From a virus, in IMG/VR virus record IMGVR_UViG_3300020419_000001, positions 1 through 45,862 of that record: a DNA stretch of 45,862 nt; one strand, given 5' to 3'. Shown piece by piece: positions 2,898-45,862 of this stretch. The notes under the pieces are model-generated. The model made no database searches. It saw only the letters and a program-made list of their open reading frames with translations, and was not told where the DNA came from. The number at the start of each line of letters is the position of its first letter. Within the stretch, counting starts at the first letter, position 1. Made by a program: the position numbers and the translations under genes.

Positions 2898-3349
2898 CAC
2901 CAATATATGCAGAAGGAGACACAAACAACTCGTCCAACCCTGTGGCAGCAGCAACAGGAAATGTTACCAATCAGGCTGTGCAATTTCAAAATAATGGAGC
3001 ACCGTCTAGACAACAATATGGTTCTTCCATATCTTGTAACGGATCAACAATGACGTTTAGCCCTTTTTATATGGGTAACGATACCTCACCGTATGACGAT
3101 GAAGGTTATGTTATATCAGAAAACTGGGGCTTTCAAATAAACTTTTCAGTACCTTTAGACAAGCGTGGTCTTGAACAATGTAGACAGATTGCCAAACGTC
3201 AAGAGGAAAAGATGAGATTAGATTATGAGTTAGTTCGTGCTCTTAAATGTGCAGAGCTTCAACAAAAAGGGTTTACGATACGCCCTGGAACTCGTGTTTA
3301 TGGCATGTGTTCTGACATCGTACCTATACAATCTTTATTAAGAAAATGA
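2831..3349 (+). CDS. secreted or membrane-anchored protein, GTG start
   Basis: I chose the GTG at 2831 because it gives a proper signal sequence: MGYHNKLYNK, the hydrophobic core LYYYIAFCILTI, then an Ala cleavage site (PIYA-EG). No ATG in this frame precedes the hydrophobic core, and the first ATG after it lies about 50 residues inside the mature domain. This gives 172 residues and a 67-base overlap with the upstream signal-peptide gene. The mature domain has Cys at SCNG, EQC, LKC and MCSD, consistent with disulfides outside the cytoplasm, and a charged helix near its C terminus (CRQIAKRQEEKMRLDYEL). It overlaps the next gene by 4 bases. Function unknown. It may work with 2544-2897, since both are exported and overlap. 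Confidence 0.65.
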   Translation: MGYHNKLYNKLYYYIAFCILTITPIYAEGDTNNSSNPVAAATGNVTNQAVQFQNNGAPSRQQYGSSISCNGSTMTFSPFYMGNDTSPYDDEGYVISENWGFQINFSVPLDKRGLEQCRQIAKRQEEKMRLDYELVRALKCAELQQKGFTIRPGTRVYGMCSDIVPIQSLLRK

Positions 3350-3957
3350 CTGAACCCACCCGTTTAATTTATGATGACTTTTTAAAACCAGAATATTTTA
3401 ATATACTTGAAAATTTGTTATGGCATCCTAATATACCTTGGCAATGGCAAAGAGGTCTTGCATATGGCGAAGATATGGCTATGGGAGAGTATGATTGGAG
3501 AATGGCTCTTAAATTACATGATGCTTATGATGGTTGGTACGATTTAAATGGGCGTATTGTTACAGATCAAAACAATAATAATTTAGTTGATATAGTAAAA
3601 TTACCATTAGCGAATATACCAAATTGGGAACATATGCTTAGGTGTAAAATCAACTTTGACCATAAAATGTATGATAACAATAAACCAATTCATTGCGAAA
3701 CTGGTTGGCATACAGACGTAAGAGTTGGTAACAAAGGTATATATACAGCTATATTATATATGGATACTAATAATGGTTATACAGAATTTAAAGATGGTGC
3801 AAGATGTGAGTCTAGAGCAAACAGAATGTTAATTTTTGATGCTAAAGAATTACATCAGGGTGTTACCCAAACAAACACAGAGTTTAGAAAAACAATAAAT
3901 TACGTATTTACAGCACACTTACTACCTAAAGGAGGAACCAATGTTAGCACTAATTAA
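3346..3957 (+). CDS. 2OG-Fe(II) oxygenase family protein (prolyl-4-hydroxylase-like)
   Basis: This 203-residue protein carries the facial triad and 2-oxoglutarate anchor of the double-stranded beta-helix oxygenases. The proximal motif is GWHTDVRVG (H-x-D, about residues 122-124), followed by ILYMDTNNGYTEF. The distal His lies in ELHQGV, and an Arg sits downstream (EFRKTINYVF). Such enzymes hydroxylate proteins, small molecules or nucleobases; the substrate cannot be told from sequence. It is coupled upstream by an ATGA overlap. This is one of four such proteins in the genome (see 4096, 16586 and 26891), and the four are not obvious copies of one another. Confidence 0.8.
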   Translation: MTEPTRLIYDDFLKPEYFNILENLLWHPNIPWQWQRGLAYGEDMAMGEYDWRMALKLHDAYDGWYDLNGRIVTDQNNNNLVDIVKLPLANIPNWEHMLRCKINFDHKMYDNNKPIHCETGWHTDVRVGNKGIYTAILYMDTNNGYTEFKDGARCESRANRMLIFDAKELHQGVTQTNTEFRKTINYVFTAHLLPKGGTNVSTN

Positions 3958-4099
3958 ACCACTTGTATTAACAGCTTTAAAAAGCCCTAAATTCAAACAG
4001 TTTGTAGTTGACTTACTAGAAAAATTAGTTCAATCTACAGACAATGAACTTGATGATAGAGCACTACAAATTGTTAAAAAAGGACTTGATATAGAATGA
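3941..4099 (+). CDS. small hypothetical protein between two oxygenases
   Basis: This 52-residue ORF has a strong ribosome binding site (GGAGGA at 3931) and an ATG overlapping the end of the upstream oxygenase by 17 bases. Its stop overlaps the next oxygenase start by 4 bases (ATGA). The N terminus is moderately hydrophobic (MLALIKPLVLTALK) and the rest is an amphipathic helix-like sequence with charged residues (DNELDDRALQIVKK). The strong RBS in a genome where most genes lack one, plus tight overlaps on both sides, argue that it is translated. No family recognised. Confidence 0.7.
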   Translation: MLALIKPLVLTALKSPKFKQFVVDLLEKLVQSTDNELDDRALQIVKKGLDIE

Positions 4100-4653
4100 C
4101 CCTAACCGCACCTATGGTTATTGATGACCTACTACCACGAGATATGTTTGAGTTTTTTTCTCATACAATAATGACCTGTAATGAATATAATTTATTACCA
4201 TTTACGGCACATCCAAGCGAAGACACAATGCACGGTGACAAGCTACACGAAACTCAAGCTCAAGCCATAATGTATACACAAATAAATGAATGTCAAGTTG
4301 TTAAGTCATATACGTGGCATGATTTAACTCCGTGTATTAATAAATTAAATGAAGCATTAGGTATTAGCAAACTTTATTTGGCAAGAGTTAATGTTACATT
4401 TGCTGCTACAAAACAGTACTTAGGTAACTATCATGTTGATATGAAAAACCATTGTAAAGAAAAAGATCTTTTTACATGTTGTTATTACTTAAATGATAAT
4501 AATGGTCAAACAACTTTTAGAGAAACAGGTCAAAAAGTGTCATCAAAAGCCAATAGAGCGGTAGTATTCCCACACAATATGGAGCATGCACTTCTATGGA
4601 ATACTGACACTAAATTAAGATACGTCTTAAACTTAAATTATGAAACAGAATAG
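4096..4653 (+). CDS. 2OG-Fe(II) oxygenase family protein
   Basis: This 185-residue protein is the second oxygenase of this cluster. The H-x-D pair is in NYHVDM (about residues 114-116). A conserved strand with a Thr-Phe follows (GQTTFRET), then the distal His in MEHALLW and the 2OG-binding Arg in KLRYVLNL. It starts within the stop of the preceding small gene. It shares only the family motifs with the gene at 3346, so the two probably act on different substrates or diverged long ago. Located in the late segment just before the small terminase gene. Confidence 0.75.
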   Translation: MTLTAPMVIDDLLPRDMFEFFSHTIMTCNEYNLLPFTAHPSEDTMHGDKLHETQAQAIMYTQINECQVVKSYTWHDLTPCINKLNEALGISKLYLARVNVTFAATKQYLGNYHVDMKNHCKEKDLFTCCYYLNDNNGQTTFRETGQKVSSKANRAVVFPHNMEHALLWNTDTKLRYVLNLNYETE

Positions 4654-5778: not shown

Positions 5779-6325
5779 AGATGACGCAGTTTTAAATGGA
5801 GTTGATGAATTTTTAATAGAAAAAGAAAGTTTTAAACCCGAAGCTTACCGTGTTCAATTACCAAATGGAAATTTTAGTGATTGGACTTATGGTTATGGTT
5901 TTGAGTTTAAAGGTGATGAACAGACTAGAGTTCAAGAAGGTGACACTATTACTAAAGAAGAAGCTAGGCCATTATTAAGGCAAAAAACACAGAGAATACA
6001 CGAATTTTTTAAAAAATACCCCGCATATGACCAAATGACACCTGCACAAAAAGTAGGAGTTATTTCATTTGGATTTAATAATGGTATAAATGTGTTTGAT
6101 GATCCAGATAACCCTAATCTTCGTGGTGCATTAGACAGTGGTAATTTAGATAACATTCAATATTGGATGCGTCAGTTTATGAGAGACAGTAGAGGACAAA
6201 TAGTTCCAGGATTAGTTAATAGACGTAATGATGAGGTGAGACTAATGAATGACCCTACGTATTTAACTAACCCATTTGATGACGGACGTAACCCTTCAGC
6301 AGAATCTGAGACTACTGGCCCATGA
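5744..6325 (+). CDS. endolysin, GH24 lysozyme-type muramidase
   Basis: This 193-residue enzyme would cleave peptidoglycan to release virions. It follows the phage lysozyme pattern. The N-terminal IEKESFKPEAYR carries the catalytic Glu region, followed by WTYGYGFEFKGD and TITKEEARPLL. Later come GVISFGFNNGINVF and the C-terminal PGLVNRRNDEVRLM. No signal peptide or membrane anchor precedes the domain, so export to the wall would need a holin. It overlaps the upstream gene by 35 bases and the large terminase gene by 4. Confidence 0.88.
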   Translation: MSETPMPNVTSEDDAVLNGVDEFLIEKESFKPEAYRVQLPNGNFSDWTYGYGFEFKGDEQTRVQEGDTITKEEARPLLRQKTQRIHEFFKKYPAYDQMTPAQKVGVISFGFNNGINVFDDPDNPNLRGALDSGNLDNIQYWMRQFMRDSRGQIVPGLVNRRNDEVRLMNDPTYLTNPFDDGRNPSAESETTGP

Positions 6326-8049
6326 ATATAGAAGACAAATTAAAAGAAGATTTTAGGTACTTTTTAACTGCTGTGTGGACACACCTTAGCTTACCAGCTC
6401 CTACAAGAGCACAGTTATGTATAGCGGAGTATCTCCAGCATGGCCCAAAAAGACTACAAATCCAAGCCTTTCGTGGTGTCGGTAAATCTTGGATTACTGC
6501 TGCTTTCGTTCTTTGGACGTTATTTAACGACCCTAATAAAAAGATCATGGTTGTATCGGCATCTAAAGATAGAGCTGACAGTTTCTCCATCTTCTGCCAA
6601 CGACTAATACTAGAAGTGCCTTGGATGGCACAGCTAAAACCTAAGAACGATGACCAAAGATGGTCTCGTATATCATTTGACGTAGGGCCAGCAGCCCCGC
6701 ATCAAGCCCCCTCAGTTAAGTCTGTAGGTATTACAGGACAGTTAACTGGATCGAGGGCAGATCTAATGGTACTCGATGATGTAGAAGTACCAAATAATAG
6801 TATGACGGAGCTACAACGTGAAAAACTTTTACAGCTTGTTACTGAATGTGAGTCTATTCTTACTCCTAAACGTGACTCTCGTATTATGTTTCTCGGCACT
6901 CCTCAGACGACATTCACTGTATATAACAAGTTAAGGGAGCGTAGCTACAGACCATTTGTATGGCCAGCTAGATACCCCCGCAAAACTGCTATGTATGACG
7001 GTTTACTTGCACCTCAGTTGCAAGAAGACTTAGACAATAAAAACTTAGCATGGGAACCTACAGATACACGATTTAAAGAAGGTGATTTACTCGAAAGAGA
7101 GGCATCTATGGGTCGTAGTAACTTTATGCTACAGTTTATGCTAGATACTACTCTATCTGACGCTGAGAAGTTTCCCTTAAAGTTTGCAGACCTAATAATT
7201 AACCCTGTTAACCCAACACATGCACCCGAAAACATAATATGGTGTTCTAATCCAGAAAACATGTGTAAAGACTTGCCATGTGCAGGACTCCCAGGAGACT
7301 ATTATTATAAGCCAATGCAGATACAGGGAGAGTGGAAAGAATATAGTGAGACTATTTGTAGCGTAGACCCCTCTGGAAGGGGCTCAGACGAGACTGTAGC
7401 ATGCTTCTTATCTCAGTTGAATGGATTTATATACCTACACGAAGTATACGCCACTAGAGACGGTTATAGCGACAAGACATTATTAGACATATTACAGAGG
7501 TGTAGAAAGTATGGTGCGGGTACGTTGCTCATCGAGAGTAACTTTGGCGATGGTATTGTATCAGAGCTATTTAGAAAACACTGTCAAACGACAAAAACAA
7601 ACATTAACATAGAGGAGACTAGAGCAAATGTCAGGAAGGAAGATCGGATTATTAGTTCTCTTGAACCTGTCTTTAATCAGCATAGGCTTATTGTGGATCC
7701 TGCCGTCATTAACTGGGATTATAAAAGTAATGAGAATGAGGCGACTGAAAATAGATTCCAATATATGCTTGCTTACCAAATCAGCCGAATGTGCCGAGAA
7801 AAAGGAGCTGTACGACATGATGACAGGATCGACTCCCTCGCCCAAGGCGTTAAATGGTTTACAGATGCCTTAGCACTGTCAGCCGAGGAGTCCATAAAAG
7901 ACAGAAGACAACAAGAGTGGATAGACCACTTAGAAGCTTGGATGGATGATCCTGTAGCAGAGGCTAATCATATGGTGATGGGAATGGATTTAGAACAGAG
8001 GAGAGAAGCTAGAGGATCGACTAAAAGCCACACCCACACTTGGATTTAG
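6322..8049 (+). CDS. large terminase subunit (DNA maturase B, T7 gp19-like)
   Basis: This 575-residue packaging motor has an N-terminal ATPase and a C-terminal RNase H-like nuclease. The Walker A-like motif is FRGVGKSWI (about residues 49-57), and Walker B is in LMVLDDVEV (about residues 149-157), followed by a coupling motif in IMFLGTPQT. Nuclease acidic residues are visible in CSVDPSGRGSDET, LIESNFGDG and RHDDRIDSLAQG. Length matches T7 gp19 (586 residues). It is the last gene before the 1.57 kb non-coding region. In T7-like phages the genome right end lies just downstream of this gene. Confidence 0.95.
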   Translation: MNIEDKLKEDFRYFLTAVWTHLSLPAPTRAQLCIAEYLQHGPKRLQIQAFRGVGKSWITAAFVLWTLFNDPNKKIMVVSASKDRADSFSIFCQRLILEVPWMAQLKPKNDDQRWSRISFDVGPAAPHQAPSVKSVGITGQLTGSRADLMVLDDVEVPNNSMTELQREKLLQLVTECESILTPKRDSRIMFLGTPQTTFTVYNKLRERSYRPFVWPARYPRKTAMYDGLLAPQLQEDLDNKNLAWEPTDTRFKEGDLLEREASMGRSNFMLQFMLDTTLSDAEKFPLKFADLIINPVNPTHAPENIIWCSNPENMCKDLPCAGLPGDYYYKPMQIQGEWKEYSETICSVDPSGRGSDETVACFLSQLNGFIYLHEVYATRDGYSDKTLLDILQRCRKYGAGTLLIESNFGDGIVSELFRKHCQTTKTNINIEETRANVRKEDRIISSLEPVFNQHRLIVDPAVINWDYKSNENEATENRFQYMLAYQISRMCREKGAVRHDDRIDSLAQGVKWFTDALALSAEESIKDRRQQEWIDHLEAWMDDPVAEANHMVMGMDLEQRREARGSTKSHTHTWI

Positions 8050-8142: not shown

Positions 8143-8217
8143 CTAACACGAGATTACTTTCGTGGTACTATTAACCATACTCTACCACCACTTTAGTACA
8201 CTTCGTACTGCACGACC

Positions 8218-8460
8218 ATGAAAAAACTACTTATTATTCTCCTTGTACTGCGTGTTGCTGCTCCTGTCAGCTTGGCGGGGTATATGTGGATGAGGAATAG
8301 AGGCAAGGATGTCTCTTCAAATTTTGACAAAATTGTTTGTGGGGATATATACGTCCCCAAAGTTAGTGTGACCCCCGTTACACCAGATTGTATCATTTTA
8401 TACACTAGGTATAAATACTTATTGACAGCAAGAACTTTTTATGGTACTCGCGGGGACTAG
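8218..8460 (+). CDS. doubtful small ORF with N-terminal hydrophobic segment
   Basis: The 80-codon reading begins MKKLLIILLVLRVAAPVSLA, which looks like a signal or membrane segment, with no good ribosome binding site. The downstream half runs through the palindromic operator repeats and a TTGACA box, so much of the protein sequence is dictated by regulatory DNA. Two Cys fall in the middle part. Treat it as possible only; the hydrophobic start is the sole positive argument. Confidence 0.3.
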   Translation: MKKLLIILLVLRVAAPVSLAGYMWMRNRGKDVSSNFDKIVCGDIYVPKVSVTPVTPDCIILYTRYKYLLTARTFYGTRGD

Positions 8461-8720
8461 TACATTTGTACTACCACTATCGCCAGGTATAAATACCTAT
8501 TGACAAATCCCGCGTTATGTGGTAGGAACTGCACTAGGTATATTTACCTACTCGCGGGGATGACTAGGTATAAATACCTACTTGCGGGCATCTGTTTGCT
8601 CTCTGGTCGCTATATCTGGGTTTGGTAACATATCATTGCACTAACTGTGGATTATGTTATATTATAAGTATAAATACTTTATATTAGTTTTGCTTATGGT
8701 TTGATTGAGTATAAATACCT
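8407..8720. repeat. array of AGGTAT-AA-ATACCT palindromes
   Basis: Six 14-bp inverted repeats of form RRGTAT-AA-ATACYT lie at 8407-8420, 8485-8498, 8536-8549 (TT variant), 8566-8579, 8666-8679 and 8707-8720. A degenerate seventh at 8976-8989 overlaps a promoter -10 box. Two of them (8407 and 8485) sit 1-2 bases upstream of a TTGACA hexamer (8422-8427 and 8500-8505). Between copies the phrase CTCGCGGGGA recurs (8448-8456 region and 8551-8560). The array resembles operators for a dimeric DNA-binding protein; no partner protein is evident in the genome. Confidence 0.65.
8459..8472. promoter_or_regulatory. LexA-type box 1
   Basis: AGTACATTTGTACT is a perfect inverted repeat apart from the central spacer and fits the published cyanobacterial LexA consensus RGTACNNNDGTWCB. 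It lies about 32 bases after the TTGACA hexamer at 8422-8427, an operator-like position. A looser variant with a 5-base spacer occurs at 8195-8209. Confidence 0.6.
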
Positions 8721-8747
8721 ATAAGATTATATATAAGTTATGCTTAT

Positions 8748-8767
8748 TTATGCTTGCTATAGCATAA
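8748..8767. repeat. AT-rich inverted repeat
   Basis: TTATGC (8748-8753) pairs with GCATAA (8762-8767) around an 8-base loop. It lies in an AT-rich stretch (8640-8770) with repeated TTATGCTTAT words and no other visible feature. Possible weak hairpin or protein site. Confidence 0.35.
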
Positions 8768-8792
8768 GGGCAGCTGATGTATATTTTGATAC

Positions 8793-8806
8793 AGTACATG
8801 TGTACT
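8793..8806. promoter_or_regulatory. LexA-type box 2
   Basis: AGTACATGTGTACT fits the cyanobacterial LexA consensus RGTACNNNDGTWCB. It is in the first copy of the 29-bp direct repeat, about 145 bases upstream of the first consensus host promoter. Confidence 0.6.
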
Positions 8807-8841
8807 ATTGTTACTTTTTGTAACATTGTATCATTTGATAC

Positions 8842-8855
8842 AGTACATATGTACT
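8842..8855. promoter_or_regulatory. LexA-type box 3
   Basis: AGTACATATGTACT is a perfect 14-base palindrome and fits RGTACNNNDGTWCB. It is in the second copy of the 29-bp direct repeat, about 95 bases upstream of the -35 box at 8951. Confidence 0.65.
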
Positions 8856-8870
8856 ACTTCAAAAGCTTTA

Positions 8871-8897
8871 GGATGGCCGCCACCATCGTCCGTGGCT
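8871..8897 (+). other. GC-rich hairpin island
   Basis: In an otherwise AT-rich stretch, GATGG (8872-8876) can pair with CCATC (8883-8887), or GCCAC (8879-8883) with GTGGC (8892-8896). The two pairings are mutually exclusive. There is no T-run, so a terminator call is weak. Confidence 0.35.
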
Positions 8898-8950
8898 TGA
8901 GCTGCCTTGAATTAATCTTATAAGTAAATGTCTTGATTTTAAAACAATAC

Positions 8951-8979
8951 TTGACATACTCACAAAAATACATTATAGT
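8951..8979 (+). promoter_or_regulatory. sigma-70-type host promoter, early P1
   Basis: TTGACA (8951-8956), a 17-base spacer and TATAGT (8974-8979) give a near-perfect bacterial housekeeping promoter reading toward the early genes. A degenerate copy of the regional palindrome overlaps its -10 box. In T7-like phages, host RNA polymerase starts early transcription from such promoters. Confidence 0.8.
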
Positions 8980-9045
8980 ATAAATAGTTAAGCAAATCAC
9001 AACTTTTTTCAACTTAACTAAATATTACTAAATGTAACAAACAAC

Positions 9046-9074
9046 TTGACAAGTCAAAACATATCATTTATAAT
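9046..9074 (+). promoter_or_regulatory. sigma-70-type host promoter, early P2 (perfect consensus)
   Basis: TTGACA (9046-9051), exactly 17 bases, then TATAAT (9069-9074): both hexamers are full consensus. A transcript would start near 9081 and run about 540 nt before the first convincing start codon at 9620. It lies 95 bases downstream of P1 and 117 bases upstream of LexA-type box 4, giving tandem early promoters as in T7. Confidence 0.88.
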
Positions 9075-9080
9075 AAAGGT

Positions 9081-9619
9081 ATGAATTGAGGAATCAAACA
9101 AACACAAACAAAATCAAACATTGGGATCTATCCTTATAAGATAGAAACAGCTCAAACCAGATTAGTTAAACGGACAATACTCCTGAGTATAGTACAAGTG
9201 TACTCCAGGGCTACGTCACTGGCGACTGGAAGCGTTACCTAATGCACTGTCAACCTTAAGGGGTTAGGTGTAATCAGGGACAATGTGGGAATATCAAGAG
9301 TTACACGCACATTAATTATTAGTGCTGTTGTTACTATATCGGCCAACCGATCTCTTAACTAGGAATAGTTCAAGATGTGTATCTAATAACAGTACTTTCA
9401 TGCGGTAGGCTAGTGCCACTATCCCTCTGACCGATTACTAACGTTTTAGAAGTTGAGTATTATTACTCATTTACTTCCCTATCCCTTACCAGTACAATAA
9501 GCATATAGCGTAGGTGCAATTCCTACACACCGCTTCGGTGTGGGTCTAAAGATGCTTGGACTGCCCCTAATTTGGTGGGGAGAAAGCTCGCAATTACCAC
9601 ACCACTACACCACAAACCC
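9081..9619 (+). ncRNA. hairpin-rich early leader, candidate structured RNA
   Basis: Downstream of P2 there is no ORF but many local helices: TCTATC/GATAGA (9127-9145); ATCGG-CCAA-CCGAT (9338-9351); AACTA-GGAA-TAGTT with a GNRA loop (9357-9370), extended by CTT/AAG; CGGT/ACCG (9403-9433) enclosing TAGT/ACTA; GAAGT and GAGTA paired with TACTC and ACTTC (9449-9477). At the end a six-pair stem AAGCAT/ATGCTT (9499-9504 with 9552-9557) encloses two hairpins. These are GTAGG-TGCAATT-CCTAC (9510-9526, shaped like a tRNA T-arm) and ACACCG-CTT-CGGTGT (9527-9541). No complete tRNA, tmRNA or intron core could be drawn. It may be a large ornate phage RNA or a regulated 5' leader; folding was done by eye only. 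Confidence 0.5.
9191..9204. promoter_or_regulatory. LexA-type box 4
   Basis: AGTACAAGTGTACT fits RGTACNNNDGTWCB. It lies within the leader, next to a second inverted repeat (ATACTC-CT-GAGTAT at 9178-9191), about 117 bases after P2, so it would block elongation rather than initiation if bound. Confidence 0.5.
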
Positions 9620-10267
9620 ATGACATACGCTCAACTATCACCCAATGCACGTGAGATTGTCGCTAGGTTTACACTAGCCACAACTCAAGAAGTGCAGGCA
9701 GGCCGTGACTGGTATCCCAATGCCCTCAAGATCTGCCACAGCATCAGCAACAGGTATGATGTACCTACATCAACTGTCGCAGGTGTCGTCAGTGCTCTAT
9801 CACCTCGCAACGAATGGTCACGCAACATCATAGATGCTGAGGCAATGTGCAAGCTACACCAATCACACGCCACTCGCAAAGACTTGCAGAGGCTCAAGGT
9901 GTGTACATTCAAGACCAACAAGATGTTAGCAATCAGCATACTCACACTGCCATCGCTTCCATCAGAGGCTATACTCACAGGTGACAAACGCCTTGAGTTC
10001 TACAACTGCATCTATCGTAGAAGTCTTGACGATATATGTATTGACGGCCACGCATACTCCATCTGGCTAGGCTCACGTGTACCAACTACCAAAACACCAC
10101 CGATTGGTAAGAAGTTACGCAAGCAAATCAAGCAAGACTACCGTGACGCCACCTCGTTCATCAACGAAGAGCTTGACGAAACGTTCATGGCAGCTGACAT
10201 CCAAGCTATTACATGGGTCACCCACAAACGCATACACAATGTCCTACGTGGATATTACAAAGTATAA
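9620..10267 (+). CDS. early hypothetical protein, possible HhH-glycosylase-like fold
   Basis: I chose the ATG at 9620 (MTYAQLSPNAREIV); a TTG at 9572 would add 16 residues that overlap the structured leader. The protein has 215 residues. Visible signatures are YDVPTSTVAGVVSALSPRNEW, TGDKRLEFYNCI and ICIDGHAYSIW, with a basic C-terminal segment. The pattern of an SP-R-W segment followed by a conserved DGHA motif recalls a phage family of unknown function that I associate with helix-hairpin-helix glycosylase folds. That link is from memory and uncertain. As the first early gene it may act on host takeover or DNA. Confidence 0.75.
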   Translation: MTYAQLSPNAREIVARFTLATTQEVQAGRDWYPNALKICHSISNRYDVPTSTVAGVVSALSPRNEWSRNIIDAEAMCKLHQSHATRKDLQRLKVCTFKTNKMLAISILTLPSLPSEAILTGDKRLEFYNCIYRRSLDDICIDGHAYSIWLGSRVPTTKTPPIGKKLRKQIKQDYRDATSFINEELDETFMAADIQAITWVTHKRIHNVLRGYYKV

Positions 10268-45600: not shown

Positions 45601-45821
45601 GTCCTAGTGCTGGTGATTTATGGTTTGACAGTTCTACTAACACTTTGAAAAACTACAACGGTTCTGCATGGTTAGGTATTACATCTAACTCTGGTATTCA
45701 AAACGTAGCTGACGACACTTCTCCAGAATTAGCTGCTGGACTTGACTGCAATGACAATAATCTTACTGAGGTAGGAACTGTTAGCGGAAACAACTTACAA
45801 ATAGATTTCGGTACACTTTAA
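42663..45821 (+). CDS. long tail fibre, T7 gp17-like N terminus, with cupredoxin-like domain
   Basis: This 1052-residue fibre has a T7-type attachment domain (about residues 1-150: VTTKKQFAATSNATTTAF, GAVVFCERRTRDADG). Repeat region A (residues about 183-346) has a 47-residue period and region B (about 388-480) a 37-residue period. Two copies of a module occur (residues about 660-730 and 885-1010), each ending DLWF then NGSAW. Between them, residues about 785-875 match a cupredoxin-like domain: HKGWTYTFDLSN, NHPLVFQSGG, then YYCSVHGTGMGN, with possible copper ligands His822, Cys866, His869, Met873. The receptor-binding role is expected; copper binding is unproven. The next fibre gene starts at its stop. 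Confidence 0.9.
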   Translation: MAVTTKKQFAATSNATTTAFTPVSIQLNNQDDLDVYVTLSGGTRVLQLRQSTGSTAQSSHPQVNNTDGLYYPAVSAGTTLYNYQLSTDNNTITFNSALPQGAVVFCERRTRDADGTYTSFASGSTIRATDLNNSAQESNFTAQEARNKAFDLEGKIYNTIGQADLVVKTTDTGTVDSTMIANGTIVNADINASADIQGSKLLDDSVTLDKLGSGTLPTDITVASANIVDGTIVNADINASADIAGTKLADDSVTLAKLGSGALPTDITVASANLVDGTIVNADINSSANIDGDKLANDSVSLGKLEGGALPTDITVASTNIVDGTIVNADINASAAIAGTKVTPAFNDQNISTTGTLASGAHTVTGNITISGTVDGRDLAADGTKLDGIETAATADQTAAEIRTLTEAATDSNVFTDADHTKLNGIETAATADQTNAEIKTAYEANADTNEFSDAEQSKLAGIETAATADQTASEIKTLLQSDKLTLSEMNTTSLDTRYFTETELTGGALDGRYYTETEAEANFLRQDSSETIASGVTWSNSDAFVATTAAINARIVDLIDDVGGFTAITSEQHFPNTNPQGSTGQAAILSIQAASTTLTPSGTTVTISNGNLANNANIIITGVSAAIPTGFGFLVESTSTLHTYTFHRLVPKATEVTTVASNITNIVNAGANVADINNFADIYQISGSAPTQRADGTSLQDGDLWFNNSNDDLRVWNGSAWAIITPSQAVLDDVAIVSGAITYSEDLGLISSSVTTGSSNGSLDIVADALEDEITIMVSVVNSGGNKYVFDGDTSNPAKAISLHKGWTYTFDLSNSSNANHPLVFQSGGSAYTTNVTSTGTAGQAGAKVVIKIPETQPNTFKYYCSVHGTGMGNTITVVEDPVKAVADIAANVVTVAGISSNVTTVANNNSNVTAVANNETNINAVQANASNINSAVSNASNINSAVSNSTNINTVSGSIADVNRYANEYKISSSAPGSPSAGDLWFDSSTNTLKNYNGSAWLGITSNSGIQNVADDTSPELAAGLDCNDNNLTEVGTVSGNNLQIDFGTL
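43209..43700 (+). repeat. 141-bp tandem repeats in tail fibre (region A)
   Basis: Three full copies start at 43209, 43350 and 43491, and a partial fourth at 43632. Each encodes GTIVNADINAS, a KL-DSV segment, and LPTDITVASAN. Exact 141-base spacing with few substitutions implies recent expansion or active homogenisation. A related copy is in the neighbouring fibre gene at about 187-380. Confidence 0.9.
43824..44100 (+). repeat. about 111-bp repeats in tail fibre (region B)
   Basis: Copies encode GIETAATADQT, AEIRT or AEIKT, and SNVFTDADHTKLN. The same module occurs three times in the adjacent fibre gene at 713-1050, making the two genes recombination partners. Confidence 0.8.
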
Positions 45822-45862
45822 ATGGCAAAATTATTAAAATTAAGACGTGGTACTACAACTCA
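45791..45862. repeat. terminal overlap, copy 2
   Basis: Identical to bases 1-72. It includes the last 10 codons and stop of the long fibre gene and then the first 41 bases of the next gene. Confidence 0.95.
45822..45862 (+). CDS. partial start of the collar-domain fibre (duplicate of 32-72)
   Basis: These 41 bases repeat the start of the gene at 32-1891 and run off the window. They are not a second gene; they result from the terminal overlap. Confidence 0.9.
   Translation, partial: MAKLLKLRRGTTT

Follow-up and report, generated by a model that had tools for sequence, protein, structure and literature searches.

Clustered LexA-type boxes in the early region of a T7-like cyanophage and their possible link to the host SOS response

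Host PhoB boxes occur in cyanophages, and temperate phages are known to make use of host LexA. In the temperate Bacillus phage GIL01, host LexA is described as repressing a phage promoter with gp7 as helper, the boxes lying in promoter P1 (PMC4551915). The lytic deferment described in PMC9437464 depends on a cell-cycle regulator, CtrA, whose dense sites lie in one intergenic region in several phage lineages; the same paper cites several phage groups that use host LexA. In cyanobacteria, the LexA box has been given as RGTACNNNDGTWCB or AGTACWNWTGTACT (Li et al., 2010, PMC3091678, citing Mazon et al. for the first form), and marine Synechococcus and Prochlorococcus are reported to possess a LexA-type SOS response (PMC3744912). 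We found no report of LexA sites in cyanophages in the open-licence literature, judged mostly from listings.

The window analyzed here is a stretch of 45,862 nt that comprises one whole IMG/VR virus record (IMGVR_UViG_3300020419_000001). Bases 1-72 and 45791-45862 are identical; on account of this exact 72-base repeat of the record ends, the window was taken to be probably a complete genome of approximately 45,790 bases in circular assembly. Its gene content is that of a T7-like cyanophage (single-subunit RNA polymerase, primase-helicase, DNA polymerase, exonuclease, ribonucleotide reductase, psbA, and terminase). The RNA polymerase is 64.5-65.5% identical to those of the Tangaroavirus isolates P-SSP6, 9515-10a, P-SSP10, P-SCSP-R27W, and NATL2A-133, and part of the terminase gene is approximately 73% identical to Tangaroavirus isolates at the DNA level. 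No tyrosine integrase (PF00589) was detected in the window, P-SSP7 and S-CBP42 each having one, and the phage is apparently purely lytic.

Between the stop of the terminase gene at 8049 and the ATG of the first early gene at 9620 lies a nearly gene-free region of 1.57 kb. It holds two ORFs of at least 60 amino acids, which overlap each other (8218-8460, plus strand; 8193-8405, minus strand); the plus-strand ORF has no family match. By position, this region is the counterpart of the stretch of P-SSP7 described as containing a 206-bp terminal repeat (PMC3350473). The region and its borders contain the following features:

6322..8049, plus strand: terminase large subunit, left border of the box region
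8407..8720, no strand: second palindrome, AGGTATAAATACCT and variants, six copies (8407, 8485, 8536, 8566, 8666, 8707), interleaved with box 1
8459..8472, no strand: putative LexA box 1, AGTACATTTGTACT, matrix score 20.5 bits, ending one base before the CCACTATCGCC motif
8474..8484, plus strand: CCACYATCRTC motif copy 1, CCACTATCGCC; the motif abuts boxes in relatives
8778..8856, plus strand: direct repeat of 30 bp (8778-8807 and 8827-8856), 90% identical, carrying boxes 2 and 3
8793..8806, no strand: putative LexA box 2, AGTACATGTGTACT, 20.9 bits
8842..8855, no strand: putative LexA box 3, AGTACATATGTACT, 20.2 bits
8880..8890, plus strand: CCACYATCRTC motif copy 2, CCACCATCGTC, 24 bases after box 3
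8951..8979, plus strand: sigma-70-type promoter 1, TTGACA-17-TATAGT (11/12)
9046..9074, plus strand: sigma-70-type promoter 2, TTGACA-17-TATAAT (12/12)
9191..9204, no strand: putative LexA box 4, AGTACAAGTGTACT, 17.5 bits, downstream of both promoters
9620..10267, plus strand: first early gene, DUF7178 (PF23802)

As described for GIL01, putative host SOS boxes accompany phage early promoters. However, GIL01 is temperate and has its boxes within P1, whereas the window phage is T7-like with no integrase detected and has its boxes mostly upstream of strong promoters. The likeness to CtrA lytic deferment lies in the concentration of host-factor sites in one intergenic region in more than one phage lineage; the regulator would here be one of DNA damage rather than of the cell cycle. 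Like the PhoB boxes, the sites suggest a cyanophage reading a host stress regulator, although the regulator, the stress, and the phage group differ. In the present case, LexA-type boxes are found in the early region of a T7-like cyanophage that has psbA and in which no integrase was detected.

The four boxes are exact AGTACA-N2-TGTACT palindromes that span 746 bp between the terminase and the first early gene. They were present where the sequence-only reading had placed them, and all four fit RGTACNNNDGTWCB on both strands and each published form of the cyanobacterial box on at least one. The chance expectation for these four palindromes is approximately 0.01: Markov simulations of the whole window gave means of 0.010 (order 1) and 0.007 (order 2) copies, with at most one copy in 600 runs per order, and simulations of the intergenic region reached four copies in none of 20,000 runs per order. 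RGTACNNNDGTWCB itself matched ten times in the window compared to 0.89 expected (SD 1.08; 0/100 shuffles reached ten); eight of these matches are the four boxes on both strands and the other two (32988, 45250) lie inside ORFs. Loose matches (up to two mismatches to AGTACNNNNGTACT) were not enriched in the window, with 37 observed compared to 31.8 expected and 19/100 shuffles reaching 37, and the signal is confined to strong sites. A looser site proposed at 8195 reads AGTAC-N5-GTACT; this spacing is wrong for the consensus and the site is no box. The proposed direct repeat carrying two boxes is present, but measures 30 bp rather than 29 and its copies are imperfect.

Scanning with a weight matrix gave a similar picture. 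Table 1 of PMC3091678 lists 48 sites, and the matrix was built from 20 of them, those of recA, lexA, and PMT0380 in Prochlorococcus and marine Synechococcus; four other marine sites and all remaining entries were left out. The boxes scored 17.5-20.9 bits, compared to 16.5-21.7 bits for the training sites (uniform background). There were four matches of at least 17 bits in the 1.57-kb intergenic region compared to two in the other 44 kb, both in coding DNA (31512 and 32988, at 18.1 and 19.1 bits; binomial P = 2e-5 for four of six strong matches falling in the intergenic region), and strong sites are hence not equally dense in coding sequence. Conservation, which had been suggested as a further check, was partial: sites are kept only in uncultured relatives, and a whole-genome matrix scan of eight named relatives found nothing above 15.4 bits.

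The likely hosts of the window phage are ocean cyanobacteria, and Prochlorococcus was the presumed host group for comparing operators. In 61 genomes from the genus of Prochlorococcus MIT 9201, AGTACA-N2-TGTACT occurs zero to two times per genome (51 copies in 43 genomes; reversed control, 0), in contrast to four copies within 746 bp of the phage genome. Among the 30 of these 51 copies that were fetched and examined, 21 lie before recA, eight before one small cysteine-rich gene, and one elsewhere. The recA box is situated 81-85 bp from the recA start and, by our own reading of the sequence, would lie over a TTGCAA-16-TAGAGT promoter. Boxes 2 and 4 match Prochlorococcus recA operators letter for letter: box 2, read as its reverse complement, equals the recA box that PMC3091678 prints for MED4 and that of L268, and box 4 has the sequence of the recA boxes in L248, L252, and L261. 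The box of the lexA gene is GGTACA-N2-TGTATT in 14/16 loci. In a second set of 61 genomes from the family of Synechococcus RCC307, some of them named Prochlorococcus, VGTACGYYTGTACY was found in 39 genomes; 30 of its 51 copies were fetched and examined, and recA lies beside the GTACGYYTGTAC variant in 25 of these 30 loci.

Boxes of the same kind are concentrated at the corresponding place in uncultured relatives. In 80 contig stretches with a related terminase, RGTACN4GTACY occurs 69 times after the terminase (161.6 kb) compared to once up to its end (355.4 kb). Among loci with at least 300 bp after the terminase, sites with up to one mismatch to RGTACANNTGTACY number 103 in the first 1.5 kb after the gene (94.6 kb, window included) and zero in the 1.7 kb leading up to the end of the gene (122.4 kb). 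When all 120 letter orders of the half-site were compared, AGTACA gave 34 exact palindromes after the terminase and each of the other 119 at most one. Per-locus box and half-site counts were restricted to loci with at least 600 bp after the terminase (12/80 left out). All of these counts in relatives include near-duplicates such as L006, which is nearly the window itself; L006, L023, and L053 were excluded as near-duplicates in one comparison. At terminase identities of 80% or higher, a box (one mismatch allowed) is present in 22/39 loci, two or more in 17/39, and none in 17/39; below 80% identity, no box was found in any of 29 loci. Relatives lacking boxes have no other frequent palindrome instead, as judged for exact palindromes of seven shapes. 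Where present, the boxes vary in number and position, with arrays at 16-17 or 30 bp spacing and up to 13 boxes per locus. The 92 distinct sites of the clade of the window give TRGTACANNTGTACYA, with A at position 6 in 91 of them and no strong conservation beyond one base on each side.

Such clusters extend beyond this clade. Two AGTACA-N2-TGTACT boxes 20-50 bp apart were found in 46 stretches of the viral collection, compared to none for the control, one scrambled pattern of the same letters. The terminase or several proteins of the window are matched by 21 of these stretches; the other 25, all stretches being partial, match few window proteins, if any. Among 27 named phage records (near-duplicates included), VGTACNNNTGTACB occurs in S-RIP1, S-RIP2, KBS-P-1A, S-CRES3, S-CBP42, P-GSP1, and NATL1A-7. 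Clusters are present only in S-CRES3 and S-CBP42; the remaining 25 records have none, and no Prochlorococcus isolate among the named records examined has a cluster. The five sites of S-CRES3 form two clusters, and four of the five are GTACGYYTGTAC; the integrase-bearing S-CBP42 contains two AGTACGCCTGTACC boxes 18 bp apart, whose ends lie 38 and 20 bp upstream of the RNA polymerase gene and which are likewise of the GTACGYYTGTAC variant (2/2). The boxes thus seem to follow the host, in that these two Synechococcus phages mostly carry the recA variant of the RCC307 family. We regard this as the strongest argument, drawn from two isolates, for LexA rather than a phage protein as the reader.

The tandem sigma-70 promoters are indeed surrounded by boxes, with three upstream of the pair and one downstream. 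Promoter-like matches overall are no commoner in the window than in shuffles (7 vs. 5.9), but the pair itself is conserved in relatives. We aligned ten regions having both the terminase and DUF7178, of which eight share the pair (11 or 12 of 12 positions, 89-95 bp apart). In these eight genomes the boxes are mostly upstream of the pair and none overlaps it; the window and its two closest kin have one more box, which lies downstream. A third promoter (12/12) is present in L119 and L126, where a box starts approximately 21 bases past its -10 element.

Two further motifs accompany the boxes. In 7/10 genomes, the first CCACYATCRTC copy adjoins a box (distance -2 to +1 base; box 1 in the window), and in 10/10 a box precedes the next copy by 1-27 bases. 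CCACYATCRTC-like motifs were observed at 8474, 8880, 10811, and 12615 of the window. In T7, the promoter core is CACTATAG and origin promoters are present at both genome ends. CCACYATCRTC resembles this core and might, as a lead only, be the core of a phage-polymerase promoter; equally as a lead, LexA might block phage-polymerase promoters at genome ends. Exact copies all lie on the coding strand in P-SSP10 (four), NATL2A-133 (six), 9515-10a (four), and P-SSP6 (three), compared to none on the other strand, some copies of the isolates being inside coding DNA. No copy was found on the coding strand of P-SSP7, P-SSP2, P-GSP1, or NATL1A-7, and copies in the window with up to one mismatch show no strand bias (four and four). 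The second motif, AGGTATAAATACCT, is itself a palindrome, in some cases followed directly by TTGACA. Its core occurs 56 times after the terminase and never before it in relatives. It is also found four to five times, next to a LexA box and close to DUF7178, in L220 and L221, contigs that are different in other respects. Another regulator that reads AGGTATAAATACCT probably acts in the region, since the exact site is present in none of the 61 host genomes.

The four palindromes are very probably host LexA (SOS) boxes, because they share 14-mers with recA operators, cluster in relatives, appear in host-type variants in two Synechococcus phages, and are not accompanied by any phage LexA or S24 domain that could be found. 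Neither the LexA DNA-binding domain (PF01726) nor the S24 domain (PF00717) was detected in any of 21 phage records at E-values up to 0.1, control genomes being positive; the phage-encoded LexA mimic that had been proposed was not found. Among 16 different proteins next to arrays in contigs unlike the window, no regulator was seen: for three of them (L104, L116, L136) a role in packaging or in the tail is clear or likely, and the rest lack a convincing match.

The first early gene encodes a DUF7178 protein, a family to which Pfam gives no function. Its predicted structure (mean pLDDT 90) is nearest to 8-oxoguanine and related HhH-GPD DNA glycosylases. The Foldseek match was weak (best E-value 0.25); a second structure comparison gave a best Z-score of 12.2 over 175 residues at 3.5 A, values that helical models can reach by chance. 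The S-CRES3 copy is annotated as N-glycosylase/DNA lyase. From this modelling, DUF7178 is probably an 8-oxoguanine-type or HhH-GPD DNA glycosylase of base-excision repair, and a repair-type first gene would be in keeping with a damage-responsive region. Phages that differ in other respects also have this gene close to boxes; six array-bearing records lack it, and it is present in Tangaroavirus isolates that have no boxes.

The sequence documents the sites, the way they cluster, their match to host recA operators, and their host-type variants. Our best guess is SOS-gated, i.e., LexA-controlled, expression or deferment of the phage program (probability approximately 0.5). The boxes would be kept by selection in the early-promoter and genome-end region of a T7-like cyanophage. 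On entry, host LexA would occupy them, and transcription from the region would be dampened or delayed. Once the host enters the SOS state through UV, oxidative damage, or damage caused by infection, RecA would make LexA cleave itself, so that the boxes would be emptied and the phage program could proceed. The affected promoter may be the tandem sigma-70 pair or the putative phage-polymerase promoter abutting the boxes. LexA binding, repression, and release, as well as the promoter concerned, are what we infer. Several results weigh against gating, namely the boxless close relatives (17/39), the named records without a cluster (25/27), the lack of enrichment of loose matches, and the absence of any box over the sigma-70 pair in eight relatives. 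The interpretation offered by the sequence-only reading therefore holds for the identity of the boxes, but less so for the gating of early transcription, given boxes that are mostly upstream, none over the pair, and the equal fit of titration.

Titration is the main rival. As phage copies rise, the boxes could act as a sponge that draws LexA off recA and other SOS genes, so that repair and recombination proteins are produced by the host to the benefit of the phage. This is possible, if doubtful: the position of most boxes off the sigma-70 pair, their differing number and placement between relatives, and the arrays of up to 13 boxes, including nine VGTACNNNTGTACB sites within approximately 200 bp in G094, are what a sponge would lead one to expect, whereas the window has only four boxes and a pure decoy would need no such fixed place as that of box 1 beside CCACYATCRTC. 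Whichever of the two applies, we see about an even chance that several unrelated cyanophage lineages, including psbA-carrying T7-like phages in which no integrase is seen, have acquired host-type box clusters that tie their early program to host DNA damage, either as SOS-gated deferment or as a LexA sponge.

A phage-encoded reader, with the likeness to host operators being mimicry or coincidence, is improbable. The recurrence of DUF7178 near boxes, the adjacent AGGTATAAATACCT palindromes with their probable separate reader, and several early genes of the window without a known family would suit it; yet DUF7178 is missing from six array-bearing records and resembles a glycosylase, LexA and S24 domains were absent from the 21 records, and the box variants follow host type. 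The T7 terminal repeat is flanked by short repeats, and the boxes might similarly serve genome-end processing, replication, or packaging, in line with the correspondence of the region to the repeat-bearing one of P-SSP7. We regard this as very unlikely: boxes are lacking there in 17/39 close relatives, comparable clusters are found in 25 stretches with few matches or none to window proteins, the two boxes of S-CBP42 precede the RNA polymerase gene, and an exact host operator would be left unexplained. Chance or a compositional artefact, in favor of which the unenriched loose matches and the two coding matches of 18-19 bits could be cited, is already excluded by the controls (Markov simulations, half-site letter orders, counts after and before the terminase in relatives, and the scrambled pair pattern with 0 compared to 46 stretches) and is given next to no weight.

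Were SOS-gated expression or its main rival correct, phages regarded as strictly lytic would have SOS-gated deferment or an SOS-inducing LexA sponge. Because the DNA damage done by sunlight comes with induction of the host SOS response, infection timing or yield in the surface ocean could then depend on UV history. Viral infection would thereby be linked, directly and in a testable way, to the SOS state of marine cyanobacteria. In addition, which box variant an uncultured cyanophage carries (GTACA-N2-TGTAC or GTACGYYTGTAC) may be a clue to its host lineage.

Three minor observations were made alongside. Genes 3346-3957 and 4096-4653 of the window are labelled "DNA endonuclease V" in PHROGs, a label that may be wrong; a UV-repair role for them was dropped because Pfam sees only a 2OG-Fe(II) oxygenase, below its cut-off. 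G094, G099, and G100 (L109, L132, L135) are high-GC phage contigs (0.60-0.64) with four to nine boxes at approximately 16-25 bp spacing. Finally, the small cysteine-rich Prochlorococcus gene (75-76 amino acids, mostly beginning MEDWQEW; L243-L245, L249, L250, L255, L259, L270) has a LexA-type box just before its start codon and is a candidate SOS gene.
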